Assembly (NCBI GenBank): GCA_026396835.1
Contig: JAPLWA010000004.1
Coordinates: 496,001 to 560,000 of the forward strand
From: Candidatus Falkowbacteria bacterium
Lineage (GTDB): Bacteria > Patescibacteriota > Patescibacteriia > Patescibacteriales > Patescibacteriaceae
Direction: 5' to 3'
Length of the DNA stretch: 64,000 nucleotides
Shown: positions 6,106-23,925 of the stretch, one piece after another
Layout of the letters: every line of letters begins with the position of its first letter
How positions within the stretch are numbered: the first letter of the stretch is position 1
The notes under the pieces: model-generated
The model's database searches: none
What the model saw: the letters and a program-made list of their open reading frames with translations, nothing else
Told to the model about the DNA's origin: nothing
Position numbers and translations under genes: made by a program

Positions 6106-6114
6106 ATAAATAAC

Positions 6115-6309: not shown

Positions 6310-6322
6310 TAATTTCTATAAA

Positions 6323-6363: not shown

Positions 6364-6372
6364 GTTTTTTAA

Positions 6373-8046: not shown

Positions 8047-8066
8047 AATTTCTTTATTAAAATATT

Positions 8067-8696: not shown

Positions 8697-8786
8697 AGGT
8701 CTTCAATAGATTTAGGGCCAATTTATGACTATTTTTATACTAGCATAACAGGGCTTTTTAGACACTAGATAATATAAGCCAAATAG

Positions 8787-8815
8787 TTGACAAAAATCAA
8801 TATTTATGATATTTT
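8787..8815 (+). promoter_or_regulatory. Sigma-70-type promoter for TPM gene
   Basis: TTGACA (8787-8792) and TATTTT (8810-8815) are separated by 17 bases. The predicted RNA start near 8822 would put the hairpin at 8844-8900 in the leader of the gene starting at 8921. Confidence 0.65.
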
Positions 8816-8843
8816 ATTAAATCGCTTCTTTGAAAAAATGGTC

Positions 8844-8900
8844 ATTAAGTTGATTGTCTGTTGCCTCTTAAAGCAAGCGACTTCGGACAATCAACTTAAT
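8844..8900 (+). promoter_or_regulatory. Long leader hairpin before TPM gene
   Basis: Perfect 15-base arms (ATTAAGTTGATTGTC at 8844-8858 and its complement at 8886-8900) enclose a 27-base loop. It ends 20 bases before the ATG and is not followed by a T-run, so it is not a usual terminator. It could stabilise the mRNA or regulate translation. A similar hairpin precedes the gene at 46457-47221. Confidence 0.5.
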
Positions 8901-8920
8901 TTAAAACCAAAATAAAAAAC

Positions 8921-10912
8921 ATGAAAAAAATCATTGTTGTGTTACTTTGCGTTATTTGCATCGGTCTAAGCGGACAATTATTCGCTCAACCTGACTGTTC
9001 GAAACTTCCTTCTAAACATGTTCCGCCCTTGGCGGTTAATGATTTAGCAGGAATCATAGATCAGAACGTGCAACAATCTCTTGAAAAACAATTGTGTGAC
9101 TATTTTAATCAAACCACAATTGCCTTAGTGGTTGTTACGGTAACAAGTCTTAATGGTCAAGATATAGAATCCTACACTCAAGATTTATTTGACTGTTGGG
9201 GACCTGGCGGTAAAAACAACGCCGGAATTATTTTTCTAATTTCTTTAAAAGACCGTAAAGTAAGAATCCATACTGGTTATGGAATTGAAGGGACACTGAC
9301 AGATGCGGCTTGTAAAAAAGTTATCAGCGATATAACTCCCTTGCTTACAAAGGGAGATTATAGCTCAGGGACTGCTAAGTGCGTTAATGAGATACTCGCT
9401 ATTACCGGTCCGCAAAGTTGGGAACAGCGAATGGAAGCAGAAAAAATTAGAAAAGAAGAAAGAGAAAAAATGCTTGCTCAAAGTAAGGATACGGTTATCT
9501 TCGTATCCGTGATCTTAGTCTTAACTGTTATTATTTTCTTCGGCGTCAGAATGTTACTCAGGAAAATTAAAGTCAGTAAATTGCGCCAAGGAATCAAGCA
9601 AGGAATAAAAGAGCAAGAGAAAGAAATACAGAATGCTCACAAATTAATCAATGAGCTAAAAAATGATTATGAAAAAGCACCTTCATGGGCAAGAAATGAA
9701 GCTAATGAGCATATGAATAGTGCTAACAATAACCTTGAAATAGCTGAAAGATTACTAGTCGACGCTCAGTCTCTCATTATCGAAAATATTAACATGGCTG
9801 ATGACAGACTAATAGAAGCGCGCAGCCTAATTGATAAGGCTGAATATAATTTCAGTAAAACCAACGAGAGCCTGCGTCAAAAAATTGTAACCTTATCTAA
9901 GAAAGCCCCGGTAGTAGCTCAAGATGCTAAAAATGTTTTGTTAAAAAATATTGAGCATACTCAAATCTTAATTAGCCAGGGCTATCTATTTAACGAATTT
10001 CTAATAAGACAAGCCGAGCTTAATATATCTCTTAAAAAGAACATGGAGCATCTTGGCGATATAGAATATGCTCCTGTCATCTGCAGGGAAAGTGAGATTA
10101 TTATGAGAAAGTCGGATGAAATAATTAAGGCAATCGATAAAACTGTACAAATGCAGAAAGAAATCGATAGCAATCTTACAGGTAAAATTAAACAAGCGAC
10201 TGAGTTGCATAAAAAATCGAACGACTTAGAAAAAATTCTTAACAGCTATAAAGAAAAGTATCCTAAGAATGTCTGGCGAGAAACAGCTAATGCTTTCTCT
10301 ATTCTTAAAGAAGCTAGTACACCAGAAAAATTGAACTCGCTACTCGATAGTGTTGCCGAACTTAACAGCATGAAGAATCAGAGATTCAGCTTAGCGGCTA
10401 AAAACTACACCGATTTAACAGAGATGATAGATAGCACCAAGCTTATCTATAGTAAAATAAGCGAAATACAAAATTTACAAGAACGGTCCAGGAAAAACTA
10501 CAATGCAAAATATTCCGAGACCGAAAGCATGGTGGTTAAAGCATTAAACAAAATAAAAGACTCTGATGTTAGTAGCCGAACAAAAAGCGCAGCTAAAAAC
10601 AGCTCTGTACTATTAAGCAAAATTAAAATAGAAGCCGAGGCTTGTCTGGTTGATTGGCTATCACTGGTAAACGAACTCGATACTATTTACCAGCAAGCTG
10701 AAGACGCCTATAACCAAGCGGAGAATGAAATAGAAAAAGCGGAAAAAGAAAGAAAAAAAGAGGCCAAGAAAAAAGCAAAAGAAAGAGAATCTTCTTATTA
10801 CGCAAGCTCAAACTATTCATCTACCAATTCCGACTCTGGCGGCCTTAGCGGCGGCTTCGGTGGCTTTGGTGGCGGCATGAGCGGCGGCGGCGGAGCTTCT
10901 GGCGGTTTCTAA
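8921..10912 (+). CDS. TPM-domain membrane protein with long coiled coil and Gly-rich tail
   Basis: A 663-residue envelope protein. A signal peptide (MKKIIVVLLCVICIGLSGQL, then FAQ) leads into a TPM domain at about 35-165, with PPLAVNDLAGIID, WGPGGKNNAGIIFLISLKDR and VRIHTGYGIEGTLTDA. A membrane segment at about 190-212 is followed by some 400 residues of helical, coiled-coil-like sequence. The C-terminus is Lys/Glu-rich and then Gly-rich (SGGLSGGFGGFGGGMSGGGG). YgcG/TPM proteins share the N-terminal layout and Gly-rich end but lack such a long helical region. TPM domains have been linked to phosphatase activity and photosystem repair; the role here is unknown. It is transcribed alone, with its own promoter and terminator. 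Confidence 0.85.
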   Translation: MKKIIVVLLCVICIGLSGQLFAQPDCSKLPSKHVPPLAVNDLAGIIDQNVQQSLEKQLCDYFNQTTIALVVVTVTSLNGQDIESYTQDLFDCWGPGGKNNAGIIFLISLKDRKVRIHTGYGIEGTLTDAACKKVISDITPLLTKGDYSSGTAKCVNEILAITGPQSWEQRMEAEKIRKEEREKMLAQSKDTVIFVSVILVLTVIIFFGVRMLLRKIKVSKLRQGIKQGIKEQEKEIQNAHKLINELKNDYEKAPSWARNEANEHMNSANNNLEIAERLLVDAQSLIIENINMADDRLIEARSLIDKAEYNFSKTNESLRQKIVTLSKKAPVVAQDAKNVLLKNIEHTQILISQGYLFNEFLIRQAELNISLKKNMEHLGDIEYAPVICRESEIIMRKSDEIIKAIDKTVQMQKEIDSNLTGKIKQATELHKKSNDLEKILNSYKEKYPKNVWRETANAFSILKEASTPEKLNSLLDSVAELNSMKNQRFSLAAKNYTDLTEMIDSTKLIYSKISEIQNLQERSRKNYNAKYSETESMVVKALNKIKDSDVSSRTKSAAKNSSVLLSKIKIEAEACLVDWLSLVNELDTIYQQAEDAYNQAENEIEKAEKERKKEAKKKAKERESSYYASSNYSSTNSDSGGLSGGFGGFGGGMSGGGGASGGF

Positions 10913-10939
10913 AAGAACATTAAACAAAAGCACATGAAT

Positions 10940-10970
10940 AAACCCCTGAGATAAACTTCAGGGGTTTTTA
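10940..10970 (+). terminator. Rho-independent terminator after TPM gene
   Basis: AAACCCCTGA pairs with TCAGGGGTTT and a T-run follows. A-rich sequence on the other side lets it also serve the leftward gene that ends at 11001. Confidence 0.85.
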
Positions 10971-11000
10971 ATTTTTTCAGGAAAATATACATTTTTAATT

Positions 11001-12782
11001 TTACATTTTTCTACTACCTAAAATATAATCTTTATCAACAGAGCCCTTTATCTGAAATTCCGGCTTAAATGGCATGACAATATTATTGTCTAACAACTTC
11101 TTAATCCACTGAGGGAAGGGTTCTAAATCTACTAAGTGTTCAAAATTATAAATTCCATTATTAACACACTCCTCAATCGCAGCTTCATAATCCCCTTCGT
11201 ATTTATTAGCTAATAATAAAGCACTAGAATAATCAATGAAGTATTCAACATAGTCATTAAACTCTAAAACATGACGAGCATAAAAACTTCTATTACTTAT
11301 CGTGCTTACTGCATTATCATATAAGGCCACTCTAGTCTGAGACTGAATTTCGGGATTTTTCATGTCAAATTCATAAACAAAATCTCGTCCTGCTAGGAAA
11401 CTATCTGATTTTTTATTATGAGAGCTAAAAGCAAAAACTCGATTAAGCTTACCTAGCTCTTTATCGTTATTAAGGTGAGCTGAATTAACTTCGGAATTAT
11501 TATTACTAAGCTCTGCTTGAGTAGACTGAGGGTTTATTTTATCAATTTGAGATCCTCCAAAATGATAAACTGTTTCAAAAAATTTATGAGCAAAACTGCG
11601 AATAGTCTTGCGCATAGTTTCAAAATCATCCAGCGATATTTTCTCGTTCTTTAAAAAAACTAATATTACTTCACGTAATAAATCTAGGTTTTCTTTTGAT
11701 ACTTCAGGCGAGCCTTGCTCTAAATATGAATCAAGAGTTTTAACTTCATCTATTTTTGAAAAACTTCCGCCTAAGGCTGTACATATTTCCTCGATATTTA
11801 AATTGAGCGCTTCGGCATCATTATATAACCACATCTTGCCGCGAATAATTTTACCCTGAAATTTACTACCTAAGGTGGCTTTAATTTCCTGCTCAGCTAA
11901 ATCTTTATCTTTCAAAGTAACGGCAAAACTTTTTTGAGGAGTAAAATTTATTATTCCATCATGCCTAACATAAGCTGCCGACGAACCTGTTTTTAGCTCA
12001 TTATTCTGGTTAATAAGAACGCTACCATACTTAGTTTCAACTACCTTACCTTCCTTTTCCATCTTATCAAGCACAGCCATTGATTCATCAACTATTCCCT
12101 GTTGTTTCTTGGCCGCGTCTACTAAATCATATTGAGCAAACTCTTCCAGAGAAAGCTCGTCTGTTGCAGACTCATGATCTTTAAAATACTTTAAGATTGT
12201 TTCAAAAGTTAAGTCTCTTTGCAGGCCTAATATAGTTTTACCACTTTTTAAAAATTCAACTGCCGGCAATCTTCTGTTATCTATATCAGTTACAAATTTA
12301 ACTAGACGATCCATTGCCTCGGTCTTTTCAATAATTCCTAAATCAGACATCGCGCTATAAACTACTTCGGTTATTGAAGTCACATCTTTAGTATTCGGAT
12401 CATGATGATCAAAAAAAGCAGTGTCAGTTGCTTCGTCATAAACTGCACCAAATTTATCACCGGTATCAAGATTGATTGCTCCTGCCAAGAATTCACCTGG
12501 TTTAACATATTTTAGATTACTTACATCTACTCCGCAGGAATCTAGCAAGCTTAAAGCTGAGCGACCATCTAAATCAGTAAATGGTCTTAAAACTTGTTTC
12601 CCTTCTTTAGGGTCAAATTGCAAAACACCTGAAACAGCAAACTCTTTCCAAAGTTCTTTGGTTTTTTGGCTGAACTTTTCATTACCCTCTGCTTCAGTCA
12701 TGGCATTCAATTCTTCCCAGGAAGATATCTTGCCTAAAGTAATTTCAGCAGCAGATCTGGAATATTCTAAATTACTCTTCAT
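11001..12782 (-). CDS. DHH-like phosphoesterase-related protein
   Basis: A 593-residue cytosolic protein. Residues 69-73 (TDLDG) and 124-128 (FDHHD) resemble the first metal motif and the DHH motif of DHH-family phosphoesterases. KFVTDIDNRRLP near residue 165 may supply another acidic site. Residues 240-340 contain a plausible substrate-binding subdomain (GSSAAYVRHDGIINFTPQ). The C-terminal 250 residues are unlike any domain I know. Known DHH proteins cleave nanoRNA, c-di-AMP or pyrophosphate; the substrate here is open. The gene lies 21 nt downstream of a glycosyltransferase. The call rests on two short motifs. Confidence 0.5.
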   Translation of the reverse strand: MKSNLEYSRSAAEITLGKISSWEELNAMTEAEGNEKFSQKTKELWKEFAVSGVLQFDPKEGKQVLRPFTDLDGRSALSLLDSCGVDVSNLKYVKPGEFLAGAINLDTGDKFGAVYDEATDTAFFDHHDPNTKDVTSITEVVYSAMSDLGIIEKTEAMDRLVKFVTDIDNRRLPAVEFLKSGKTILGLQRDLTFETILKYFKDHESATDELSLEEFAQYDLVDAAKKQQGIVDESMAVLDKMEKEGKVVETKYGSVLINQNNELKTGSSAAYVRHDGIINFTPQKSFAVTLKDKDLAEQEIKATLGSKFQGKIIRGKMWLYNDAEALNLNIEEICTALGGSFSKIDEVKTLDSYLEQGSPEVSKENLDLLREVILVFLKNEKISLDDFETMRKTIRSFAHKFFETVYHFGGSQIDKINPQSTQAELSNNNSEVNSAHLNNDKELGKLNRVFAFSSHNKKSDSFLAGRDFVYEFDMKNPEIQSQTRVALYDNAVSTISNRSFYARHVLEFNDYVEYFIDYSSALLLANKYEGDYEAAIEECVNNGIYNFEHLVDLEPFPQWIKKLLDNNIVMPFKPEFQIKGSVDKDYILGSRKM

Positions 12783-12803
12783 ATTTTTATAAACTAAATC
12801 AAT

Positions 12804-13913
12804 TTAGCTACGGCTGAATCTAATTCCATTAATTAATTTTTCAATATTATCAATCAATTCCTTGCCGTTTTCCATCTCAATAATTTTGTTTTCATATTCC
12901 TTTAAAAGCTCGGGTGTAATAACTTGTCCTTTTACTTCAAGTGGTTTTGATAAATCAATTTGATCAAACACCTTCTTAAAAGACGCCGGGGTTCTATCAG
13001 AATCTCTAAGCGAGGTAACTACTTTTAATTCTTCTTTCATGCCTATAACTTTTTTATGATTATTATTTGCATAGTCTGATAAATCTTTTCCAAACCGAGG
13101 ATCCTCACCGGAGCTTGCATCAATTAATCCTCCAATCACTGCTGTTTCAAAACTTTTACTTATCATATTGGCGCCTGAAAAAGTTGTTTTCAACAAACCC
13201 GATTCTATCTTTCCTTTCTTTAAACTTCGATTAAAAAGTTCCCATTTTTTAAGCATAAGAAAGCGATTGATTTTCTCTTGTTGCTCTAATTTTTTATCAG
13301 GATCTTTTAAGTCTAAATCAACCTCATATACGAGCCCGCCAGCAATTCCAATAACATCTGGTGATTCTTTAAAAATGTTTTGCACTTTTATCAAATAGTC
13401 TGGATCATCAAAATGCGTATCAGCATCCGTCTGAATTAAAATTCCGTTTTTATTGTTTTCGTAGAATCGTTTACTAGCTTCCGCAACTCCTCTATTACGA
13501 GCCTTTCCGACATTACAATCTTCTATTTCATGACCTTTTGAACTTTTATCAATAACATAAACCGGAAGATCTTCAATCGAGCGCAGCATGTTTATAGTTT
13601 CCAAATTTTTTGCACGTATTAATTCATCGCCTAGATCTTCAGAAATTAAATCATTATTAACAACATAAAGAATTTCATACTTTGTTGAATCTATTGATTG
13701 TTTTCTAAAAGAATCAATTTGTTTTTCTAATCGTTCATTATCTTCATTATAAACTGGTACAACGATAGAAAACTCACAATCTTGATTTTGAGGCGAGCTG
13801 ATTCTTTCTTCGTTATTTAATTTAGAGTCCCAATATTCATTTGATTTCTTCAATTTTTCAATATCAGAAAATTCTTTATTCTCGTTATTTAGACTGATGA
13901 TAATTTCTTTCAT
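12804..13913 (-). CDS. Family 2-type glycosyltransferase (GT-A fold)
   Basis: A 369-residue enzyme. After a 45-residue N-terminal extension it shows FSIVVPVYNEDNERLEKQID (nucleotide-sugar-binding start of GT-A), then KARNRGVAEA and the DxD-type metal site LIQTDADTHFDDPDYL. GANMISKSFETAVIGG and SSGEDPRFGKDL follow as acceptor-site elements. No membrane segment is visible, so it is cytosolic or peripheral. Donor and acceptor are unknown; a surface-glycan role is the usual family role. It is adjacent to the DHH-like gene and a SET protein. Confidence 0.8.
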   Translation of the reverse strand: MKEIIISLNNENKEFSDIEKLKKSNEYWDSKLNNEERISSPQNQDCEFSIVVPVYNEDNERLEKQIDSFRKQSIDSTKYEILYVVNNDLISEDLGDELIRAKNLETINMLRSIEDLPVYVIDKSSKGHEIEDCNVGKARNRGVAEASKRFYENNKNGILIQTDADTHFDDPDYLIKVQNIFKESPDVIGIAGGLVYEVDLDLKDPDKKLEQQEKINRFLMLKKWELFNRSLKKGKIESGLLKTTFSGANMISKSFETAVIGGLIDASSGEDPRFGKDLSDYANNNHKKVIGMKEELKVVTSLRDSDRTPASFKKVFDQIDLSKPLEVKGQVITPELLKEYENKIIEMENGKELIDNIEKLINGIRFSRS

Positions 13914-13951
13914 AGTATACGCTAAGGCTACTTAATGTTATCGAAAATAAT

Positions 13952-14347
13952 TTAGCTAATAACACCCCTTCTCTTTAAATCACCTTCTGACTCAAATTCA
14001 AGATAATTCTGAGTTAATTCCTCTCCTGCTTTTACATCTTTAACTGCGACCAAATATGCATCACTATGGTTAGGATCCTGAGCGACTGTTCTATTGGTAG
14101 AATGATTAATAAAATGCGACACATCAAAATCTACATGCCATTTTTGAGTTGGTTCATCAAAAAAACCCCACCATCTGATTTCTGCTTTTTCTTTTTCGTC
14201 TAGAGAATCAAATTGTTCCTGAGTAATATTTACATCCAGCGCGGGACTAGGCGTATATATAAGCGCTCCTTTAATAATATCTTCGGCCGCAAAAAGACCT
14301 ATGCCATGCAGACTAGATTTATCAAGTCTATATTTAATATGTATCAT
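13952..14347 (-). CDS. SET-domain protein (putative protein lysine methyltransferase)
   Basis: A compact 131-residue SET domain. The hallmarks are LHGIGLFAAEDIIKGALI at the N-terminus, SHFINHSTNRT (the NHS cofactor and active-site motif) and AGEELTQNYLEFE with the catalytic-region Tyr. The length is that of a stand-alone SET core without post-SET cysteines. SET enzymes use S-adenosylmethionine to methylate lysine. In bacteria without histones the targets may be DNA-binding, ribosomal or pilus proteins. Neighbours give no clear substrate. A SAM synthase is encoded 7.5 kb away at 21702-22880. Confidence 0.85.
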   Translation of the reverse strand: MIHIKYRLDKSSLHGIGLFAAEDIIKGALIYTPSPALDVNITQEQFDSLDEKEKAEIRWWGFFDEPTQKWHVDFDVSHFINHSTNRTVAQDPNHSDAYLVAVKDVKAGEELTQNYLEFESEGDLKRRGVIS

Positions 14348-14357
14348 AAATTTATTT

Positions 14358-14396
14358 GCTGACTACCCTGAGCAAGAACCATAATCGGTAAAGCCC
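14358..14396. repeat. Direct repeat B, copy 1
   Basis: 39 bases beginning GCTGACTACCCTGAGCAAGA match 14884-14922 with about four differences. The two copies bracket the YunG-like gene. Confidence 0.75.
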
Positions 14397-14426
14397 AGCA
14401 AGGCTATTAATAAAACTTTTGCCTTA

Positions 14427-14810
14427 TTATTTTGATGATCCTTGGGCACTAATGAATCTTTCTTTAAGTAAATCAAATCTTCTTAACGTATCCGGGTAAT
14501 TCAATATTGAATCGCGAGAAGATATGGTTCCTGTTAAATCTTTGTAAGATAAATCATCGTACTGCTCTGCGGTAAAATCTATATCCTTATTATCAATTTT
14601 GTTCCAAATATGAGATTTAATATATGGATATTTAGTATTACCACTTATTGAACCTTTTACTAATTCTCCTCCAAATATTTCTTGTGCTAAAAGAGAAACA
14701 ACTGCACAATGACCCCATAGTGGGTTATCCAAATTCCATCCATTGGGATCAAAAGATGTTTCATCACTTGCCACTTCTTTTATAATTCTTAAAAATTCTT
14801 CTTGGTTCAT
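14427..14810 (-). CDS. YunG-like small protein
   Basis: A protein of about 127 residues starting MNQEEFLRIIKEVASDE. The core NPLWGHCAVVSLLAQEIFGG and SHIWNKIDNKDIDFTAEQY matches the pattern I associate with the YunG family (Cys near the N-terminus, then a His-Trp-Asn motif, then Asp-Phe-Thr). The Cys/His pair suggests a papain-like or transglutaminase-like arrangement, but no activity is established. The frame is open further upstream to 14924, but that extension is encoded by repeats A and B, so the Met at 14810 is preferred. Flanking repeats suggest a transferable single-gene unit. Confidence 0.65.
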   Translation of the reverse strand: MNQEEFLRIIKEVASDETSFDPNGWNLDNPLWGHCAVVSLLAQEIFGGELVKGSISGNTKYPYIKSHIWNKIDNKDIDFTAEQYDDLSYKDLTGTISSRDSILNYPDTLRRFDLLKERFISAQGSSK

Positions 14811-14829
14811 ATTTAATGACGTATCTCGT

Positions 14830-14922
14830 GCTAACTCAACTTGACTTGCAAATCCGGAGCCCGCCCTGAGCGGGCGAAAGATTGCTGACCACCCTGAGCA
14901 AGAACCATAATCGGTCAGGCCC
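14830..14922. repeat. Composite repeat A (14830-14888) plus B copy 2 (14884-14922)
   Basis: The A part (59 bases) is repeated at 15464-15522 with about four substitutions. It contains a CGCCCGCTCAGGGCG-type hairpin when read on the minus strand. The B part is repeated at 14358-14396. Both A copies end about 20 bases upstream of a start codon (YunG-like and NUDIX genes), so A may be a shared leader. Confidence 0.75.
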
Positions 14923-14976
14923 ATTAAGGTATTTTTTAATATTTATATTCTACCATAACGACGCCTTTTGAGCTTA

Positions 14977-15441
14977 TTATTGATTTTTAAGATTAGTACG
15001 CTCTCCTATTTCCCTGAGATAATCAAGAACTTTCTCTTGTTGTCTCCCTATTGCATCACTTAACTTTAAATATTCACTAAGTATCATTAAAAAAAATTCC
15101 TGACCCTCGTCTCCAAAAACAATATCACTTTCTTTTATATTTAATGGTTTGGTTACAATAAAATATGCTTCTTTGGTTGGATCTATGAAACTCATATACT
15201 GCTTGCCATATTCAATATCATTTTGATCAACTACCAATCCAAACTCCTCCTTCACTTCTCTACTGAAAGTATCAAAAGGAGATTCATTATTTTCCTTACC
15301 GCCTCCGGGCAAATCAATACATAATGGGAAATTACTCGTCTTATTGTCTCTTCTGTATACAAGTATTTTTTTACCAATAAAAACAAGTCCTTTAACACCA
15401 TGGAAATTTATATTAATATCAAAAATTCTTTGATCAATCAT
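14977..15441 (-). CDS. NUDIX hydrolase
   Basis: A 154-residue hydrolase of nucleoside-diphosphate-linked substrates. The NUDIX box is clear: GGGKENNESPFDTFSREVKE followed by EFGL, containing the metal-binding REVKEE. N-terminal strands VKGLVFIGKKILVYRRDNKT form the usual sheet. The substrate could be an oxidised nucleotide, a sugar nucleotide or a capped end; sequence does not tell. It starts at MIDQRIF, 22 bases after repeat A copy 2. It is preceded by a stretch of more than 200 nt without genes, so it is probably transcribed separately from the MBL gene. Confidence 0.9.
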   Translation of the reverse strand: MIDQRIFDININFHGVKGLVFIGKKILVYRRDNKTSNFPLCIDLPGGGKENNESPFDTFSREVKEEFGLVVDQNDIEYGKQYMSFIDPTKEAYFIVTKPLNIKESDIVFGDEGQEFFLMILSEYLKLSDAIGRQQEKVLDYLREIGERTNLKNQ

Positions 15442-15650: not shown

Positions 15651-16316
15651 TTAAAACTCATAAAACACAGCTTCTTCAGATGGTTTCTTGCCATTAATAA
15701 TAGCCCCCGAATGACCAGGTATTATAATATCAAAATTATACACAATCTCTTTTTTCGTTTTAATTAATGCGGAAACACTGAACGGCACAACATCAAAAGA
15801 TGTAATATTTTTGTAATCTTTATAGGTTTTGATTGCGTCTCCTGCCACTATACAATGTTTATTCTTCATTTTAAAAATTAAAGAAGAATGCCCTGAAGTG
15901 TGGCCTATGGTCTCTATGGCAGAAACATTTTTTGAAATATTAAATTCACCATTAAATAAAACTAAATTTTTTGAGGAAACTATGTTTTTAAAATATTTGA
16001 ATGTATATACATCTTCCTTCTTAATTTTATCTAAACATAGGAATTCTTTTTCATTAAGATATATCTTAATACCCTTCTTTACAAATAAATCAATATTCAA
16101 ACAATGATCATAATGTAAATGCGAGATAAAAACCTTATTTATTTTATATTTTTTTAACGTGTCAATAATTTTTTCTCTTACTGCATAGTGTCCAACATCA
16201 AAAAGAATAACATCCTTACCATCCTTAATTAAAGAAATTGAGCAGTAACCAATTCCACCAAATTTTGTTTTTAACGGAATGCCAGGAATAATAACTTTTA
16301 CTATAGGTTGTGACAT
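15651..16316 (-). CDS. Metallo-beta-lactamase-fold hydrolase
   Basis: The start is taken at the Met at 16316 (MSQPIVKVIIPG), because the longer frame to 16379 would overlap the upstream gene's end. The protein is 221 residues. The metal signature is ISHLHYDHCLN (HxHxDH), followed by TIGHTSGHSSLIF and VAGDAIK, with the last His in IIPGHSG. These residues form a two-metal site used for hydrolysis of lactones, thioesters, phosphodiesters and similar bonds. As the last gene of an operon with AroE and a dehydrogenase fusion, a lactonase-like step is possible. That is inference. Confidence 0.8.
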   Translation of the reverse strand: MSQPIVKVIIPGIPLKTKFGGIGYCSISLIKDGKDVILFDVGHYAVREKIIDTLKKYKINKVFISHLHYDHCLNIDLFVKKGIKIYLNEKEFLCLDKIKKEDVYTFKYFKNIVSSKNLVLFNGEFNISKNVSAIETIGHTSGHSSLIFKMKNKHCIVAGDAIKTYKDYKNITSFDVVPFSVSALIKTKKEIVYNFDIIIPGHSGAIINGKKPSEEAVFYEF

Positions 16317-16320
16317 ATCA

Positions 16321-18135
16321 TTAATTCTTTGTTGATTTATACAGAGCGTTAATAAAATTAGTTCGAGAATAGGCTTCATCGAATCGAACCAAGTTATGAT
16401 CTGCCCTTCCAGTTAAAATATATTTAGTAAGCTTATCTAACAGCATCTTATGACCATATAAGAATCCTGCTTCTTCGTTATACCGTAGCTCTACCTTAGA
16501 TGATCCCATTATTTCAGTCGTTAGTGACTCATTGAAAGCCATACCACCTATAACAGCTCTCCCTTTCTCAAAGATAAATAAGATATTACACCCCATATTG
16601 CTTGGGACTGAAGCCATTGTTACTTCAAGATTAAATAAAGTATTTTCAGATTTAAAATGCGCAAGAACTGTGTCTTCAGTGTCTAATGCTTTATGATAAA
16701 TTTTATCTTTATAAGAATTAATAATTTTGAAGCTTCTATCAACACTAAAATATTTCATAATAATATCAATCAAATGTATGCCTTGGTTAAATAAAATTCC
16801 GCCCTCATATTTCTTTTTACCCTGCCAAGAACCCAAATAATAGTCTTTATCCCTAAACCATCTCATACTTGCGGCCACATATAATAATTTTCCTACTTTA
16901 TTTTTTTTAATCCATTCTTCTAAATCCAATAACGGTTTATTAAAACGATTTTGATATACAATAAAGAGTTTGGACTGATAATTCTTATGCTTTTTTATCT
17001 TCTCCATCCCGTCTACAGACATAACTCCAGGCTTCTCGCAAAGACATATTTTATTATTTTTTAGAACATGATCAATCATATCAGCATGAGTATAATGTGG
17101 CGTACAAATAATCATAGCATCAACATCTTCTATTAAGGTGTCTAGATTCTGATATACTGGACAATCATATTTAGCAGTAATCCGCTCTAGTTGTTTTTTA
17201 CTGGTATCAAAAATCCCAGCTAACTCTGCATTTTGATTATTCTTAATTGAAATTAAGTGTTTTCTCACGCCCTTGCCACAACCAACCACGCCATACTTAA
17301 CTCTTTTACTAGATAAAATATTCCTTAACTCTTTAAGAGAGGCTAATGTGTTTTGCTCAGAGTCGCCACCTTTAACATGAGTTTCGAGCGAAAGATATGA
17401 TGGTTTTACATAATGATTCAACCATGAGATGAGATTTTTATAATTAATATCTCCGGCACCAAGAATTTCATATTTTTTATTGACGAGAGAATAATCTTTA
17501 AGATGAACATATAAGATATCCTTCGCAATACCCCGCAAACTATTAAAATCTAGACTTTCTCCCTGAAAATATAAATTACCAGGATCAAGTAAAATCTTAA
17601 CTCTTTCATTTTTAAACTTTTTTTTAAATTTCACTAAATCTTTTATAGTCCGTATATTACATACAGGTTCATTTTCAAGCAAAATAATTTTCTTATACCT
17701 TTCAGCTAAATCAACTAAAGCGTTTATATCTTTAGACAAATCCGAAAAAGAAAAGTTTTTGTACCTTAGATATGAAAATATTCTAATATTTGGTGCCTTA
17801 AAAATTTCCGCTATTTTAAAAACCTTTTCAAATTCTTCGCTTTTATTTTTAAAATCAAAGGAATCAACTTTTAATTTTCCTTTATTTTTTTCCACTATAT
17901 CTTCCGGATACCACTTAAGAATCGGAGAGGCTATACACGAAACTTTAACATTATTTTTAGAAAGATATGCCGCGTATTTTTTTAAATCAGATAACTTAAT
18001 ATTAAAAATATTTTCTCCATTAATCGACCTGAGTTCAATAAATTTGATTGAATTTTTTTTCAAAAAACGAACGGCCTCCTTCAAATCTCGATTAATCTCA
18101 TCATTAATGATTGAAATGTTGTTCATATTAAGCAA
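16321..18135 (-). CDS. Fusion: TIM-barrel sugar isomerase-like plus Gfo/Idh/MocA oxidoreductase
   Basis: 604 residues in two enzymes. Residues 1-275 resemble the xylose-isomerase-like/AP-endonuclease-2 TIM barrel: IILLENEP near 151-157, ILLDPGN near 181-187, YVHLKDY near 209-215 and SLETHVKGG near 249-257 give the Glu-Asp-His-Glu metal set. Residues 279-604 are a Gfo/Idh/MocA NAD(P)-dependent oxidoreductase with KYGVVGCGKGVRKHL (Rossmann Gly motif), IICTPHYTHADM and the catalytic Lys in CLCEKPGVMS. Such pairs act on inositols, keto-sugars or dehydroshikimate. A single chain suggests two consecutive steps. It overlaps aroE by 8 nt. Confidence 0.8.
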   Translation of the reverse strand: MLNMNNISIINDEINRDLKEAVRFLKKNSIKFIELRSINGENIFNIKLSDLKKYAAYLSKNNVKVSCIASPILKWYPEDIVEKNKGKLKVDSFDFKNKSEEFEKVFKIAEIFKAPNIRIFSYLRYKNFSFSDLSKDINALVDLAERYKKIILLENEPVCNIRTIKDLVKFKKKFKNERVKILLDPGNLYFQGESLDFNSLRGIAKDILYVHLKDYSLVNKKYEILGAGDINYKNLISWLNHYVKPSYLSLETHVKGGDSEQNTLASLKELRNILSSKRVKYGVVGCGKGVRKHLISIKNNQNAELAGIFDTSKKQLERITAKYDCPVYQNLDTLIEDVDAMIICTPHYTHADMIDHVLKNNKICLCEKPGVMSVDGMEKIKKHKNYQSKLFIVYQNRFNKPLLDLEEWIKKNKVGKLLYVAASMRWFRDKDYYLGSWQGKKKYEGGILFNQGIHLIDIIMKYFSVDRSFKIINSYKDKIYHKALDTEDTVLAHFKSENTLFNLEVTMASVPSNMGCNILFIFEKGRAVIGGMAFNESLTTEIMGSSKVELRYNEEAGFLYGHKMLLDKLTKYILTGRADHNLVRFDEAYSRTNFINALYKSTKN

Positions 18136-18979
18136 TCTTATTAATAAGCTCTCTATTGATTCTTTCTACATTAACATTCTTAAGTGAAACACCTGTCCAT
18201 AATTTAAAAGCTTCAATCCCTTGAAAAATCATCATATACATTCCCGAACAAACCTTTCCACCTCTTTTCTCTGCATTAATTAAGAAATTGGTTTTATAAG
18301 GATTAAAAATTGCATCAAAAAAATATTTACCCCTAGCTGAATTCTTAACAAATATATCCTTGCTAACTATTTCCTGCTTATTGTTTGGGTGCATCCCTAC
18401 TGGCGTTGCGTTAACAATAATATTACTATCCTTAAAATATACGCTAATATTTTTGACACTTAAGTTCTCAACTTGAATCTTTCCCCCACTAACATCTAAT
18501 GATAGCTTCTTAGCTTCTCCAATGTTTTTATTAAGAATAACAATGTTTCTAGTTTTTGAGTATAAAGCATAAACAATAGCTCGAGCTGCACCCCCTGCTC
18601 CCAAGATAAGAACCTTATCATTCTTATTCAATTTTTTTAGTTTTGTCTCAATCGCACGTAACGCTCCTATGGCATCGGTATTATAACCTACAATTGTATG
18701 ATTTCTAAAAACCACGGTATTTACTGCACCTATTTTTGCAGCGCTAGGACTTATGACATCTAAACATCTAATAATATCTAATTTATAAGGCAATGTAACA
18801 TTGACACCGCAAAAACCCAAAAACCGTAATTGATAAAGTGTATTTTTTAAATCACGTTTTGATTTTACTCTAATTTTAAGGTGACTATACTCTATGCGAG
18901 CATAATCAGCCAAAAGATAAAACAGAGTAGGAGAAACACTATGTTCAACTGGATCTCCGATAAGTGCTGAATATTGCAT
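18128..18979 (-). CDS. aroE: Shikimate dehydrogenase family protein
   Basis: 283 residues, normal for AroE. The substrate site shows HSVSPTLFY (Ser-x-Ser), NVTLPYK with catalytic Lys66, AVNTVV, and GYNTDA with Asp102. The NADP-binding motif is ILGAGGAARAIVYAL near 125-139. The C-terminal IFQGIEAFKLWTG with Gln is conserved. AroE converts 3-dehydroshikimate to shikimate; relatives act on quinate or aminoquinate. No other shikimate-pathway gene is seen, and its partners are a TIM-barrel/dehydrogenase fusion and a glycosyltransferase. It may therefore serve a special product and not aromatic amino acids. It overlaps the downstream gene and lies 4 nt from the upstream one. Confidence 0.88.
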   Translation of the reverse strand: MQYSALIGDPVEHSVSPTLFYLLADYARIEYSHLKIRVKSKRDLKNTLYQLRFLGFCGVNVTLPYKLDIIRCLDVISPSAAKIGAVNTVVFRNHTIVGYNTDAIGALRAIETKLKKLNKNDKVLILGAGGAARAIVYALYSKTRNIVILNKNIGEAKKLSLDVSGGKIQVENLSVKNISVYFKDSNIIVNATPVGMHPNNKQEIVSKDIFVKNSARGKYFFDAIFNPYKTNFLINAEKRGGKVCSGMYMMIFQGIEAFKLWTGVSLKNVNVERINRELINKIA

Positions 18980-18983
18980 AAAT

Positions 18984-20126
18984 TTATATTTTCATTTTAA
19001 CTATGAATTTTTTTCGAGTTAATTTCGCTTGCCTTCGAATAATTTTTTCTATTACCAGTGGATTTCCCCCGATAACTTGTTCCCAAAAACTAATTGCTCT
19101 AATTACGAATATAGGTAACAACTCTTCGGAGAGCTTAGAACTATTATGCTTTTTGCCTCTATTCGAAAGAGCGTAGCTGAGCCAAGAGGATAAAATATCG
19201 GCCCAAACAATTTCATTAATAGGTTTTTTGCTGTTAACAATAACGGATAATTTTGTTTTTAATTCTTTTTCTAGCCAACGGAATCTATCTAAATTATCAC
19301 TTACATATAAAAATTTTTCCATTAGCAACTTTTGTGCTAATTTTCTATGCACGAATTTTTGACTCTTTGTAATACTTACAAAATTAATAGAATAAACCTT
19401 TGAAGATAATACTAATTTTTTCATTCTAGTAGCATCTAATACGGCAGATGCTGGCTGAGGAAGTATCTCAAGATTAGAGAAACTTGGCTTATGAATCTTT
19501 TTTCCTAATTTAATTTGAGTTAATTGTGAAAAATGTAAAACCGCCTGAAGAGATAAAAAAATATCAATACCATAATAATACGCTCCTTTTGGTTTTGATA
19601 AATGAGATATTTTTTTTACGAACTTTTTACTAAAAGCAAAATCACCAGCAATTGGTTGCCGTATATCCCTGCCACTTAGTGTATAAATAATTGGATAAGC
19701 AAAGTGATTTGTAGTGCTACCTTCAAAGCGACTGCGCTCATACAAAGGCCAAACAAAATCACATTTTCTGCGAATAATCGGACTGATAAGTTTTTCTATC
19801 CAGTCAACTTTAATACTTTTTAAATCCGCATCTAACATAACAAAAATATCAAATTGTTCTTGATATTTTTTTAAAAAAAATAGTATGTTTTTCCCTTTAC
19901 CTGGTTTACCCTTGGTGATAAATGATATTTTACTATTTTTAGTTTTTACTTTTCTGAAAATTTCACTGGTTTTATCGGGACTTGAACTATCTATATTAGC
20001 AATCACTACTTTTTTAATTTCAGGAAACTTAACTTGAACCGCCATTAAGCCCTTGTCAATTATTTTAGTAACAAATGCAATGTTATTTGCTTCCTGATAT
20101 GACGGTAGAATAACAGCGATATTCAT
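18984..20126 (-). CDS. GT-A glycosyltransferase, GpgS/mannosylglycerate-synthase-like
   Basis: 380 residues. MNIAVILPSYQEANNIAFVT starts the GT-A fold, KGKPGKGKNILFFL and FVMLDADLKSIKVDWI give the metal DxD site. IRQPIAGDFAFSKKFV plus YYYGIDIFLSLQAV resemble the acceptor region of glucosyl-3-phosphoglycerate and mannosylglycerate synthases. Those enzymes attach a sugar to a small carboxylated acceptor such as phosphoglycerate. A similar small-molecule acceptor would fit an operon that also makes keto-acid or shikimate-like compounds. The donor is unknown. The C-terminal 120 residues are helical and Lys-rich. Confidence 0.7.
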   Translation of the reverse strand: MNIAVILPSYQEANNIAFVTKIIDKGLMAVQVKFPEIKKVVIANIDSSSPDKTSEIFRKVKTKNSKISFITKGKPGKGKNILFFLKKYQEQFDIFVMLDADLKSIKVDWIEKLISPIIRRKCDFVWPLYERSRFEGSTTNHFAYPIIYTLSGRDIRQPIAGDFAFSKKFVKKISHLSKPKGAYYYGIDIFLSLQAVLHFSQLTQIKLGKKIHKPSFSNLEILPQPASAVLDATRMKKLVLSSKVYSINFVSITKSQKFVHRKLAQKLLMEKFLYVSDNLDRFRWLEKELKTKLSVIVNSKKPINEIVWADILSSWLSYALSNRGKKHNSSKLSEELLPIFVIRAISFWEQVIGGNPLVIEKIIRRQAKLTRKKFIVKMKI

Positions 20127-20148
20127 AAAAACTTTTTTGGGTTAATTT

Positions 20149-20694
20149 TTACTCAAACTGAATTCTGCTTTCCTCAACCTTAGAACTTTCATACAAATCT
20201 TTCCAAACAGGTTCTGATCCTATTTGATCTTTCGAAAATTCTAAAAAATATTCTAATTTCTTTACTAAACTAATCTGTATTTCATTGCCCTCGGCAAACT
20301 TAATGTAATGACTATTAATATACAAGTCAGCACATTTAACAATTAAAGCTTCAAAGCCAAATTTCTTAGTTCGATTAAACATCTCCCGATATCGATCTTC
20401 TTTGTTCTTAATAGAAACATCAAAAGAAACTGAATCAACTAACTCAGCAATTTTATTACCGAAAACAGAATCTATATCATTCTTTGTTACGTCACTATCC
20501 TCTATTAAATCATGCAAAATTGCACCCATAATAATGTCTAAGTTGTAATTATAAGAGAATAAATAGTACGCAACCTGTAAACTATGAAAAATTACCGGCT
20601 TATCATTATGACCGGATTTCTCATAGTTATTAACAAGAAAAACAATTGCTTCATGCAAAGCATGTCCCTCTTTAGGTGTAATATCTTTAAACAT
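20149..20694 (-). CDS. HD-domain hydrolase (RelA/SpoT-like HD)
   Basis: The start is placed at the Met at 20694 (MFKDITPKEGHALHEA), since the open frame upstream to 20742 runs through the terminator of the previous gene. That gives 181 residues. VIFHSLQVAYYL supplies the first His, GAILHDLIEDSDVT the His-Asp pair with the ED motif of SpoT-type hydrolases, and IVKCADLYINSHYI the last Asp. Family members hydrolyse ppGpp or related nucleotides. It may act in this operon as a nucleotide hydrolase or be a stand-alone small alarmone hydrolase. It opens a five-gene leftward run. Confidence 0.75.
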   Translation of the reverse strand: MFKDITPKEGHALHEAIVFLVNNYEKSGHNDKPVIFHSLQVAYYLFSYNYNLDIIMGAILHDLIEDSDVTKNDIDSVFGNKIAELVDSVSFDVSIKNKEDRYREMFNRTKKFGFEALIVKCADLYINSHYIKFAEGNEIQISLVKKLEYFLEFSKDQIGSEPVWKDLYESSKVEESRIQFE

Positions 20695-20699
20695 ATATT

Positions 20700-20720
20700 C
20701 TAGTTTTAGCATAAAACTAG
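20700..20720. promoter_or_regulatory. Perfect hairpin in leader of HD gene
   Basis: CTAGTTTTA and TAAAACTAG enclose three bases and end six bases before the ATG at 20694. It may limit initiation or mark a processing site; no T-run follows. Confidence 0.4.
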
Positions 20721-20724
20721 AAAT

Positions 20725-20756
20725 AAAAAAAGGTCGACACATGATATGCGCCGACC
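20725..20756 (-). terminator. Rho-independent terminator after HPr-kinase-like gene
   Basis: On the minus strand GGTCG and CGACC pair, with further pairs toward a short loop, and seven T follow. It separates the cofE-mat-kinase operon from the HD-led operon. Confidence 0.75.
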
Positions 20757-20762
20757 ATTTAA

Positions 20763-21689
20763 CTATTTAACAATATAGTCTGTTATCTGATTTACGGGTC
20801 CAGAAATATAGTTAAGTCCCGATATTATCCTGTTAGCCAGATCTTTCCTAAACGTATGGAAAGAAATCTGATCATAAGAAGGGATAAATCCTAACTCCTC
20901 AAACCGTTCGCCGCCTAATACATTGATACAGCTACCTCTTATATATCTTGAAAAATTTTCAATCAAGAATAATTTAGTTGATAGATTGTTATCTTTCTTA
21001 ACATAAATTGAAGATAGATTGTTATCAACGTGAACCAGAAAAGAACTATAAATTTTCACCGAAGAATTTTCTTTGTTGATTAATAATTCATCGGGGTTAA
21101 TCTTTTTTTTGCATAACCAGGTTTCTTCGGGGTTATCAGGAAAAAACTTTAGTAAATCAGGAAGACCTCTTTTAATAGATTCATAACGCAGATAAAAAAA
21201 CTTTGTACCTGCTTTTGCATATATACCATCTTTCTGTATCCCCAAAATAACTAAATCATTTCCAATAATTTTTGCTTTATACCTAATGCACATATCCAAG
21301 GCAACCGAGGTTTTACCTGCACCAGATTTACCAAGAAGCAATATACCTCTTCCATCCAAAGATACGGCTGCCGAATAGGCTGTTAGCCAACTGTGCACCT
21401 GACGTTGAGCTTCTAAGAATGGGTATGCTGCGTAAAGTAGTGTTTCACCGTTATTCATCAACTTCCAAGGATATTTTATATAACAAACATTCTCAGTGTA
21501 AACAATAGACTTAACAGTAGAATCAGAATACTCTACTCGGAATTGAGACGAAGGAGTTGTCTTAGAAATGCTAAAAGCAATATGATCTCTTAATAAAGAC
21601 GGAGATTCTAAGCAACTCATTAGGTTTGCTTTGTCGCTAAAAAAATCGACCGTCTCACCTGCTGACGATAATGAACATATATAATTCAT
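20763..21689 (-). CDS. HPr-kinase-like P-loop protein
   Basis: 308 residues. The C-terminal half contains ILLLGKSGAGKTSVALDM (Walker A at 120-127) and IIGNDLVIL, an order typical of the HprK/PckA-like P-loop kinases. HprK proper has an N-terminal domain and a capping loop for phosphorylase activity that I do not recognise here. Free-serine and other small-molecule kinases share this fold. The N-terminal 110 residues resemble the helper domain seen in HprK-related proteins of peptide-modification clusters. The start is fixed by a strong ribosome site AGGAGGG overlapping the mat stop codon. The phosphorylated substrate is unknown. Confidence 0.65.
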   Translation of the reverse strand: MNYICSLSSAGETVDFFSDKANLMSCLESPSLLRDHIAFSISKTTPSSQFRVEYSDSTVKSIVYTENVCYIKYPWKLMNNGETLLYAAYPFLEAQRQVHSWLTAYSAAVSLDGRGILLLGKSGAGKTSVALDMCIRYKAKIIGNDLVILGIQKDGIYAKAGTKFFYLRYESIKRGLPDLLKFFPDNPEETWLCKKKINPDELLINKENSSVKIYSSFLVHVDNNLSSIYVKKDNNLSTKLFLIENFSRYIRGSCINVLGGERFEELGFIPSYDQISFHTFRKDLANRIISGLNYISGPVNQITDYIVK

Positions 21690-21696
21690 TTTAATG

Positions 21697-21703
21697 CCCT
21701 CCT
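21697..21703 (-). promoter_or_regulatory. Strong Shine-Dalgarno before HPr-kinase-like gene
   Basis: AGGAGGG lies 7 bases before the ATG at 21689 and overlaps the stop codon of the mat gene. Most other starts I inspected in this window have no such motif. Confidence 0.7.
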
Positions 21704-22880
21704 AACGAACCTGCTTATCTCTCAATAAACCGGCAACGTAATCTATTTCTAAAATATTTTTAGTAACTAATCTTTCTATGTCTTTCTTATCTACGGTAAT
21801 CCCCGTGCTAATTGACAAAAGATATGGAGGAATTAATGTACTACCATTCTTTGTCATTGCTATCACGCTGTTTTTCACACCAAGTTCATCATAAATTGCT
21901 TTTGATAAAATTGTCACCAGATAGTTCATAACTCTACCTGTATGATATTTTGGATTTTTACCTGACGGAGCTTCTGTAGAATGAGGTCTAAACATAGAGA
22001 TAAGACCACTAGATGAATTTCCTCTTCCAACAACACCCTCTTCACCGCACTCAATACAACTTCCGATACCCAACATATATGGTTTATTAGCATTTACTTC
22101 AAGATTAATCCTGTATTTATCACCAACAAGTTCATTGGCAAATAAAGATAGATCTTTTTGAGCCTGAGCCACTATATCATTATATGCATTTTTATCAGGA
22201 GCAAATGTAGAAATAACAGGAACACGAACGCCAATATTAACAGCATTACCATTACGGTAAGCCATGACTTTTATGTCCTGTCCAAAACACTTAAATCGTG
22301 GACTAGGAAAAAACTCTTCCTTGTTCCAGAAATACTCTTCGAGAGAATAAACTAAATCTTCACAGGTAGTAAGTGGATAGCTTGCAACGCAAACCGCATT
22401 ATCATTAGCTGTTAACTTTGAATATTCTGGAAGATCTTCAATCCCACGCGGTTGAAACCAGTATGGGATCTGAGAATTCTGAGTAACATTAGAATTGATA
22501 ACTACATCTGTACTAGCGAGGTTAGGTAATACAGCCTGCAAATAACTTAATATAGTTTTTCTTTGAAGAACATCTACGTTAATCTGATGCCCACCGAATG
22601 AGTCGCTCATGCGCCCATTAATAAATACTTGTACCGGTTTAATTTTTTCAACAAATCCGAACCCTGACTTGAAGAAACCGGCACCGATATAGAACTTGTC
22701 TACATTATGATGCAATACATATCCGAAATTATCTATACAATATTTAGAATATTCCATAGAAATTAGTTCGGCTAAAGCATCTGCTAATGTGTCAGGGTGT
22801 CCCAACCCTTTTCTTTCAACAATTTCTGTGTCCATGTTTTCAGGATCCAGAAAGTTGGTCTTCAAATCCAAGAAGTTCAT
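21702..22880 (-). CDS. Archaeal-type S-adenosylmethionine synthetase
   Basis: About 392 residues, the usual size of archaeal methionine adenosyltransferase. Signatures include EIVERKGLGHPDTLADALAE near the N-terminus, VLHHNVDKFYIGAG, DSFGGHQINVD and the C-terminal NYLVTILSKAIYDELG. It makes S-adenosylmethionine from ATP and methionine, but belongs to the family that is unrelated in close sequence to bacterial MetK. A ribosome site GGAGG at 22886-22890 points to the Met at 22880, not the one at 22892. It lies between cofE and the kinase-like gene, with the start region overlapping the cofE stop. Being archaeal-type in a bacterial context, it suggests horizontal transfer. Confidence 0.85.
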   Translation of the reverse strand: MNFLDLKTNFLDPENMDTEIVERKGLGHPDTLADALAELISMEYSKYCIDNFGYVLHHNVDKFYIGAGFFKSGFGFVEKIKPVQVFINGRMSDSFGGHQINVDVLQRKTILSYLQAVLPNLASTDVVINSNVTQNSQIPYWFQPRGIEDLPEYSKLTANDNAVCVASYPLTTCEDLVYSLEEYFWNKEEFFPSPRFKCFGQDIKVMAYRNGNAVNIGVRVPVISTFAPDKNAYNDIVAQAQKDLSLFANELVGDKYRINLEVNANKPYMLGIGSCIECGEEGVVGRGNSSSGLISMFRPHSTEAPSGKNPKYHTGRVMNYLVTILSKAIYDELGVKNSVIAMTKNGSTLIPPYLLSISTGITVDKKDIERLVTKNILEIDYVAGLLRDKQVR

Positions 22881-22891
22881 GATAGCCTCCA

Positions 22892-23626
22892 TTAAAATAA
22901 AATATTTGTAATTTTTGATTTATTACTTTTAGAATATACTGCACCTCGTATTAGAACCACCGGAACCCCCTCATTAGCTTGCCCCATAAGAATAGATCCA
23001 GCAGCGGCCATTTCATCAATTAAAGCGATTCTACTTTGTGAAAGATTAGAATAAAGATCACTCTGACTTCTTATTTCCAAAGCAGAGATCCCCGCTATAC
23101 CAATAGCCATACCGACTGAACCATCGCGATCCTTTCGACCGCACGAATCATTGATAATAACTGCAACGTTTTTACCACTAAGTCTTTTAAGACTATTTTT
23201 TATTCTTCGTGCACTTAAATCAGGATTTTTAGGCAATAAAACCACTACCTCTCTTGAATGTGGCGCTATATTAGAACGGTCAACACCTGAGCTGGACATA
23301 ATAAATCCGAGTCTGTGCCTTGTAATCACCATCCTGCCTTTAATATAAAGTAATTCCGACGCTTCATTAAGATATACTTGTACAAGTCGTGGATCACGAC
23401 CTGTTTTTTTCGCAATTCTAGAAGCTTTTACTGTTGGCGTTATTGTTTTCAAATCAACTACCGCCCCTTCTGCCTTAGAAATAATCTTTTGGGCAATAAC
23501 AAAGATGTCATTATCCTGTAAAAAAACATTATTTCTCTCACAGTACCCCATAATAAGATTGGCTATCTTACTTCCTCTTTCCACTAACGGCAAGCCTACT
23601 AAAGGCATTAATTTTATTGTTTTCAT
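22892..23626 (-). CDS. CofE-like gamma-glutamyl ligase
   Basis: 244 residues resembling coenzyme F420-0:L-glutamate ligase CofE. It starts IKLMPLVGLPLVERGSKIA. It then shows DIFVIAQKIISKAEGAVVDL, TGRDPRLVQVYLNEASELL, NDSCGRKDRDGSVGMAIGIA and a C-terminal AAAGSILMGQANEGVPVVLI, all at positions expected for the family. CofE uses GTP to add glutamate through an amide bond. No other F420 gene (cofC, cofD, cofG, cofH) is seen, so it may link glutamate or another amine to a different carboxylic acid. It is the first gene of the three-gene operon with a promoter at 23679-23707. Confidence 0.8.
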   Translation of the reverse strand: MKTIKLMPLVGLPLVERGSKIANLIMGYCERNNVFLQDNDIFVIAQKIISKAEGAVVDLKTITPTVKASRIAKKTGRDPRLVQVYLNEASELLYIKGRMVITRHRLGFIMSSSGVDRSNIAPHSREVVVLLPKNPDLSARRIKNSLKRLSGKNVAVIINDSCGRKDRDGSVGMAIGIAGISALEIRSQSDLYSNLSQSRIALIDEMAAAGSILMGQANEGVPVVLIRGAVYSKSNKSKITNILF

Positions 23627-23678
23627 TTTTGTTTTTTATTTGTTTTTTGATAAATTTTTTATGTACATTTAACTATTT

Positions 23679-23707
23679 AATCTAATACAATATTAACAAT
23701 TTGTCAA
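23679..23707 (-). promoter_or_regulatory. Promoter of cofE-mat-kinase operon
   Basis: On the minus strand TTGACA (23702-23707), 17 bases, then TAGATT (23679-23684), 53 bases before the ATG at 23626. The rest of the gap to the tRNA is AT-rich and shows no gene. Confidence 0.55.
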
Positions 23708-23844: not shown

Positions 23845-23854
23845 CTCAAGGATG

Positions 23855-23925
23855 CTGCGGGACCTGGATTCGAACCAAGATACTCGCCTCCAGAGGGCGA
23901 TGTCCTACCATTAGACGATCCCGCA
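23855..23925 (-). tRNA. tRNA-Gln (anticodon CUG)
   Basis: The acceptor stem pairs TGCGGGA with TCCCGCA, followed by discriminator G and no encoded CCA. The anticodon stem TCGCC/GGCGA encloses loop CTCTGGA, so the anticodon is CTG. The T arm reads CTTGG-TTCGAAT-CCAGG. The U1-A72 pair and the G discriminator are typical of tRNA-Gln. Confidence 0.92.

Follow-up and report, generated by a model that had tools for sequence, protein, structure and literature searches.

A conserved, patchily distributed biosynthetic gene cluster in Patescibacteria with relatives on Streptomyces and haloarchaeal plasmids

We analysed a window of 64,000 nucleotides (the whole stretch studied) from the genome of a Candidatus Falkowbacteria bacterium (contig JAPLWA010000004.1), in which a sequence-only reading had singled out eight consecutive leftward genes as a metabolic island. 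All eight open reading frames (ORFs) were found on the minus strand between 15651 and 23626, and Pfam and NCBIfam placed them in the families that had been named. In the direction of transcription, the run opens with a CofE-like GTP-dependent amide ligase (22892..23626, 244 aa; PF01996, TIGR01916), an archaeal-type S-adenosylmethionine (SAM) synthetase (MAT; 21702..22892, 396 aa; PF01941, 235 bits) and a P-loop protein of the HprK/PEPCK superfamily (20763..21689, 308 aa; Walker A motif, weak PF07475 match, Foldseek). It continues with an HD hydrolase of the SpoT/RelA/Mesh1 type (20149..20694; HD_4, PF13328), a GT-A glycosyltransferase (GT) resembling mannosylglycerate synthase (MgS) and glucosyl-3-phosphoglycerate synthase (GpgS) (18984..20126, 380 aa; PF00535, Foldseek), an AroE-family dehydrogenase (18128..18979, 283 aa; TIGR00507), a fusion of a xylose-isomerase-like TIM barrel to a Gfo/Idh/MocA oxidoreductase (16321..18126) and a lactonase-like hydrolase of the metallo-beta-lactamase (MBL) fold (15651..16316; PF00753). 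Alignment with homologues put the probable starts of the MBL (16316), TIM/Gfo (18126) and HD (20694) genes downstream of the longest-ORF starts (16379, a TTG at 18135, and 20742, respectively). These eight genes are one recurrent set and not a chance run.

The cluster genes overlap or abut with one exception, the gap 3' of hprK, which holds an intrinsic-terminator-like hairpin of 11 bp with a T-tract (20732..20756, minus strand). A perfect terminator occupies the hprK-HD junction of G570, one of the Patescibacteria genomes that we refer to by G numbers, and a weaker hairpin lies there in G308. The hairpin and the similar terminator in G570 thus make two leftward transcription units likely (cofE-mat-hprK and HD-GT-aroE-TIM/Gfo-MBL), in support of the two operons first proposed. 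Upstream of cofE lie, in order, a promoter-like site on the minus strand (TTGACA-17-TAGATT, 23679..23707; a consensus match of a kind no commoner than in shuffled sequence), tRNA-Gln(CTG) (23854..23925, minus strand) and dnaX. An Rfam scan gave no upstream riboswitch; its only matches were the tRNA and, below threshold, an L20 leader over the terminator hairpin. The tRNA is a possible insertion hot spot; G203 retains the dnaX-tRNA-Gln pair without the cluster and offers no clean empty site, and the window contains no tRNA-end (att-like) repeat and no integrase. Integration of the cluster at tRNA-Gln is accordingly no more than suggestive.

To define how widely the set occurs, we surveyed a phylum sample of 380 genomes and a second sample of 381 genomes from the window's class. 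Strong matches to the HprK-like protein were found in 6 of the 380 phylum genomes (the window genome, G308, G077, G082, G095 and G029). Archaeal-type MAT, present in 11 of the 380 overall, occurred in all six, and in each of them the MAT and HprK-like genes were adjacent or one gene apart. Close CofE homologues (E < 1e-50) were limited to five genomes, each among these six. The co-occurrence of CofE, MAT and HprK-like genes in Patescibacteria, suggested beforehand as a check, is therefore borne out (Fisher p 1e-10 for HprK-MAT and 9e-11 for CofE-HprK). The class survey added three cluster genomes, G602, G570 and G526. G602 carries cofE-mat-hprK-GT-aroE-TIM/Gfo-MBL, which is the window's order for seven genes, with a divergent HD gene adjoining; its TIM/Gfo fusion and MBL protein are 46% and 55% identical to those of the window. 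Since G602 holds the whole set, the possibility that the order occurs in no other genome, named at the outset as the outcome that would undo a joint unit, fails. The G602 GT (10423-11562) is broken into two ORFs by a frameshift or an assembly error.

At least seven Patescibacteria besides G602 carry shorter versions. G570 has cofE-mat-hprK-HD-GT; G308 has cofE, mat, hprK, HD and GT together with aroE; G526 has hprK-mat-GT-LarA-cofE; G082 (Andersenbacteria) and G095 have mat, hprK, cofE and GT; and G029 (candidate division WWE3) and G077 have mat and hprK. The distribution is patchy: two genomes from the same genus as the window lack the cluster, as do the majority in the classes to which G308 and G082 belong. 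Two scans of a contig collection with the HprK-like protein recovered only two relatives, both already in the set. The wider kinase family extends beyond the set, as a weaker HprK-like relative in G367 has no MAT adjoining. About 70 of the 380 Patescibacteria genomes hold a distant CofE homologue of lower similarity. Beside the cluster, the window encodes a NUDIX protein, a YunG-like protein, a SET-domain protein and a second GT2 (12804-15441); no cluster homologue adjoins such genes elsewhere, and they were left out of the set.

A plasmid search with the window MAT revealed that the set extends beyond Patescibacteria. Plasmids of Streptomyces sp. NBC_00708, NBC_01601 and NBC_01304 carry TIM, Gfo/Idh, MAT, two genes annotated as hypothetical and CofE in a row, with AroE also present on the NBC_01601 and NBC_01304 plasmids. 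The two hypothetical genes match the patescibacterial profiles for the HprK-like protein (E ~1e-20) and the GT (E ~1e-26). A plasmid of Halorussus salilacus carries TIM, Gfo/Idh, AroE, MAT, GT and HprK-like genes within ~14 kb. TIM and Gfo are separate genes in Streptomyces and Halorussus and fused in the window and G602. Among 26 MATs placed in a tree, the 13 cluster members from Patescibacteria, Streptomyces and Halorussus formed one clan (support 100/98.8), separate from the haloarchaeal and proteobacterial MATs and from further patescibacterial ones, in support of a joint unit. Because a single MAT clan spans these phyla, MAT follows the cluster and not the host, and the set has apparently been horizontally transferred. 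The sequence-only reading had held such biosynthesis to be unusual in cell-symbiont genomes. Rare it is (6 of 380), but the set is cross-domain and plasmid-borne and not peculiar to such genomes. In sum, this is a real, conserved and patchily distributed family of biosynthetic clusters.

Other plasmids gave looser resemblances. Two Streptomyces plasmids (NZ_CP130719.1 and NZ_CP108307.1) carry GT, archaeal-type MAT, TIM, Gfo/Idh, P-loop ATPase, carbamoyltransferase and NUDIX genes behind a large regulator, and their MATs fall outside the clan of the window MAT. A plasmid of the rickettsial symbiont Candidatus Megaera polyxenophila (AP017966.1) carries a run of MAT, TIM and NUDIX genes, four oxidoreductase genes and genes for a thymidylate-kinase-like protein and a bisphosphate nucleotidase, which looks like another orphan biosynthetic set in a cell symbiont. 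A Parageobacillus caldoxylosilyticus plasmid (NZ_CP040554.1) bears an aminocyclitol-like cluster of MAT, myo-inositol-1-phosphate synthase, a split DegT-type aminotransferase, HAD, SDR and PqqD, and also a distant HprK-like gene (E 1e-10). Many Sinorhizobium meliloti megaplasmids of the pSymA type carry a CofE homologue 45% identical to that of the window.

In the window genome, MAT, AroE and CofE are dedicated to the set and are not housekeeping, shikimate or F420 genes. The window MAT is a full-length PF01941 protein in which alignment showed the invariant motifs ERKG, GHPD, GRGN and GKNP to be intact. Bacterial-type MetK is encoded elsewhere in the window genome (G000:C6:109915-110307) and also in G308; the archaeal-type MAT is thus an extra SAM synthetase there, and a housekeeping role for the window MAT is ruled out by this second enzyme. 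Bacterial MetK (PF02773) had no match in G082, G095, G077 or G029, where the cluster MAT may also serve the cell. In G095, a SAM decarboxylase (7963-8379, above the TIGR03330 cut-off) and a C-methyltransferase (8294-9586) lie between GT and MAT, and this pair is the sole case of SAM-using enzymes seen inside this clan's clusters in Patescibacteria.

The window CofE scored 211 bits against PF01996 and 222 bits against TIGR01916 (cut-off 180.65); its nearest solved structures are CofE 7uld and 2phn (E 4e-59), and it is 40-60% identical to the CofEs of other clusters. No CofD (PF01933) was found in the window genome (of which 4% is missing), G308 or G095, with CofC, CofG and CofH not searched for; CofE therefore does not serve F420 in these genomes. 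Likewise, the window AroE passed TIGR00507 (223 bits versus a cut-off of 200.2) and keeps the catalytic Lys and Asp (NVTLPYK, NTD), and chorismate synthase (PF01264) was absent from nine of nine genomes tested, the window genome included, and present in 14 of 14 controls. Without chorismate synthase AroE does not serve chorismate, and a shikimate pathway is ruled out.

The sequence-only reading had called the P-loop protein HPr-kinase-like and the GT GpgS-like; both families hold, and the finer labels can be refined. The P-loop protein has an intact Walker A motif (GKSGAGKT), and its AlphaFold2 model (pLDDT 82.5) matched PEPCK (E 2e-8) and HPr kinase (E 2e-6) in Foldseek, whereas it fell below the curated cut-offs for HPr(Ser) kinase/phosphatase (TIGR00679, 24 versus 240 bits; PF07475, 22 versus 33). 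Its predicted structure makes it a member of the HprK/PEPCK-fold superfamily and probably a small-molecule kinase. For the GT, the best Foldseek match was 2y4j, MgS with lactate (E 4e-12, TM ~0.7), and sequence profiles concurred; the protein scored 55.8 bits against the GpgS equivalog cut-off of 262 and is nearer in fold to MgS than to GpgS. The acceptor carboxylate is held by Thr187 in GpgS and Thr139 in MgS (PMC2581804). In a profile alignment, R131 and T139 of the window GT aligned with R131 and T139 of MgS, and both residues are kept in eight of eight cluster GTs, the divergent Streptomyces ones included. By its modelled fold and predicted acceptor-carboxylate residues, the window GT is MgS-like.

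The HD protein matches solved RelA/SpoT hydrolases (E 5e-18) with its HD and ED residues kept, and its gene is present too in the G308, G570 and G602 clusters. The fusion protein scored 65.5 bits against PF01261 and 86 bits against PF01408; its TIM part keeps the E-D-H-E residues, which we take to be typical of its family, and its Gfo part is nearest to solved 3q2k/3q2i (E 2e-35), followed by DgpA and inositol dehydrogenases. The MBL protein matches AiiA-type lactonases (E 1e-7) and has the HxHxDH motif.

Three hints, independent of one another, suggest a 2-hydroxy acid: the fold and residues of the GT, the lactyl chemistry of CofE and a gene of the LarA family (nickel-dependent hydroxyacid racemases or epimerases) between GT and cofE in G526 (12718-13917). 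CofE uses GTP to convert the lactyl carboxylate of its substrate into an acyl phosphate, which is then attacked by L-glutamate (PMC10861534). We tentatively favor, at somewhat less than an even chance, a horizontally acquired biosynthetic cluster whose product is a small 2-hydroxy-acid derivative that is glycosylated and carries an amide bond. The recurrence of the set, the dedication of its enzymes, their folds and the carboxylate-binding residues of the GT are demonstrated; substrates, step order and product are what we infer in the following route. AroE, the TIM/Gfo fusion and the lactonase-like MBL protein would oxidise, epimerise and open a polyhydroxylated unit; this part is found in the window and G602 and partly in Streptomyces and Halorussus, and is optional elsewhere. 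The MgS/GpgS-like GT would glycosylate a small 2-hydroxy acid of the lactate or glycerate type on its hydroxyl, the HprK/PEPCK-fold kinase would phosphorylate a small carboxylate or alcohol intermediate, and the HD protein may remove phosphate or pyrophosphate. CofE would activate the carboxylate with GTP and couple it to an amino acid, which the precedent suggests is L-glutamate. The archaeal-type MAT would supply SAM for the transfer of a methyl or aminocarboxypropyl group, carried out by an enzyme outside the cluster or among those listed. The carboxylated, glycosylated and perhaps amidated or phosphorylated product of the sequence-only reading fits the enzyme folds, and like our own it is still something that we infer.

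Several observations weigh against this proposal. The core set has no methyl- or aminocarboxypropyl-transferase to account for MAT, and the substrates are assigned by analogy of fold and residues to proteins that are 13-20% identical, with a GT model of modest confidence (pLDDT 77) that is lower around the acceptor loop. G077 and G029 carry a GT4 where others have the MgS-like GT, the cofE copies of G077 sit on a different contig (G077:C20) from its MAT-HprK genes, and CofE was not seen in the Halorussus stretch examined. The TIM, Gfo and MBL families are also frequent in catabolism. Near the G077:C20 CofE copies (5832-6641 and 11063-11842) lie radical SAM/SPASM genes, transposase fragments and a nucleotidyltransferase.

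The main alternative, which we consider rather unlikely, is that SAM or adenosine itself forms the backbone of the product, which would be a nucleoside-type antibiotic or signal. MAT would then provide the scaffold, Gfo/Idh would oxidise the ribose, the TIM part would epimerise or eliminate, the P-loop protein would phosphorylate, the GT would glycosylate and CofE would amidate the methionine carboxylate. This would explain why MAT, with the kinase, is the most constant gene and yet the core has no SAM-using transferase; the SAM decarboxylase added in G095 is in keeping with it, as are the NUDIX, nucleotidase, thymidylate-kinase-like or carbamoyltransferase genes of related MAT, TIM and Gfo clusters (NBC_01334/NBC_00015, Megaera). 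However, the GT fold and residues indicate a hydroxy-acid acceptor, and several core clusters have no TIM, Gfo or AroE. The same optional character of the sugar-oxidising genes makes it improbable that the run is a catabolic or salvage island for a host-derived cyclitol, quinate or glycoside, with AroE, IolG/IolE/DgpA-like TIM and Gfo proteins and a lactonase beside unrelated neighbours: the families of inositol dehydrogenase, DgpA and lactonases are indeed the ones that TIM, Gfo and MBL recall, but what stays constant is the core of MAT, HprK-like protein, CofE and GT, of which CofE, MAT and GT are anabolic.

We give slightly less credence still to a pathway for a ribosomally synthesised and post-translationally modified peptide, in which the HprK-like protein would phosphorylate a peptide, in the manner of phosphorylated lasso peptides, and CofE would add an amino acid. 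HprK-like kinases occur in lasso peptide clusters, and both the radical SAM/SPASM genes of G077 and the PqqD and HprK-like genes near MAT in Parageobacillus would suit such a pathway, but the window cluster has no precursor-like ORF, protease or cyclase, and its abutting genes leave no room for one. It is very improbable that the cluster is left over from, or a variation on, the synthesis of F420 or folate tails: CofE does exceed the TIGR01916 cut-off, but the genomes that lack CofD count against it, and no F420 gene stands among the neighbours. That the genes are chance neighbours or a passive island with no common function might be argued from the low GC content (0.29-0.31 at 16-21 kb of the window) and the adjoining tRNA; recurrence of the set in many distant genomes and on plasmids refutes this, and we regard its probability as close to negligible. 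As to other origins, a phage or viral one was rejected, since no MAT was found in a phage collection and a pattern scan of viral contigs gave no MAT or HprK. PADLOC models of anti-phage defence matched nothing apart from weak similarity of the HD protein to pAgo, and a defence system was rejected on this negative search.

Each enzyme family is already known. The combination is new as far as open-access papers show, since searches of their full text aimed at it (subscription papers and preprints being outside the scope) turned up no description, and the recurrent pairing of SAM synthetase, HprK/PEPCK-like kinase and CofE has no described chemistry. We put at an even chance the broader proposal that archaeal-type MAT, HprK/PEPCK-type kinase, CofE-type ligase and a hydroxy-acid GT define a new natural-product (or cofactor-like) pathway family in Patescibacteria, Actinobacteria and Haloarchaea, borne largely on plasmids or islands and making a chemically new compound. 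If this is true, even reduced, symbiont-type bacteria would produce a specialised metabolite. Patescibacteria are regarded as metabolically stripped, yet some hold a dedicated multi-gene biosynthetic set in common with Streptomyces and a haloarchaeon, and the culturable, perhaps genetically tractable Streptomyces that carry it would allow a direct search for the product of an otherwise unculturable lineage.

Comparison with known systems places the cluster beside, and not within, several of them. The clusters of Streptomyces NBC_01334/NBC_00015 and the Megaera polyxenophila plasmid share an archaeal-type MAT adjoining TIM, Gfo/Idh and a kinase-like gene, but their MATs lie outside the clan and they have neither CofE nor an HprK-like protein of the window's family; no description of their products was found in the open-access literature. 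F420 tail synthesis provides the precedent of GTP-dependent amide formation on a lactyl carboxylate by an enzyme of the same family, whereas the window CofE is linked to MAT, a kinase and a GT in a genome without CofD. Shikimate/quinate dehydrogenases share the family score and catalytic residues of the window AroE; unlike them, it sits in a genome without chorismate synthase, and AroE lies inside the set in the window, G308, G602, two Streptomyces plasmids and Halorussus. With the HPr kinase/PEP carboxykinase superfamily, the window protein has in common the P-loop core and predicted fold, but it fails the HPr kinase cut-offs and its relatives (22-41% identical) form their own MAT-tied family. 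Finally, the window GT shares the DxD motif with MgS (GT78) and GpgS (GT81) and, with MgS, the GT-A fold over its full length (TM 0.7) and R131/T139; it differs from both in sequence (13-20% identity), and its partners are CofE, MAT and a kinase in place of a compatible-solute phosphatase.

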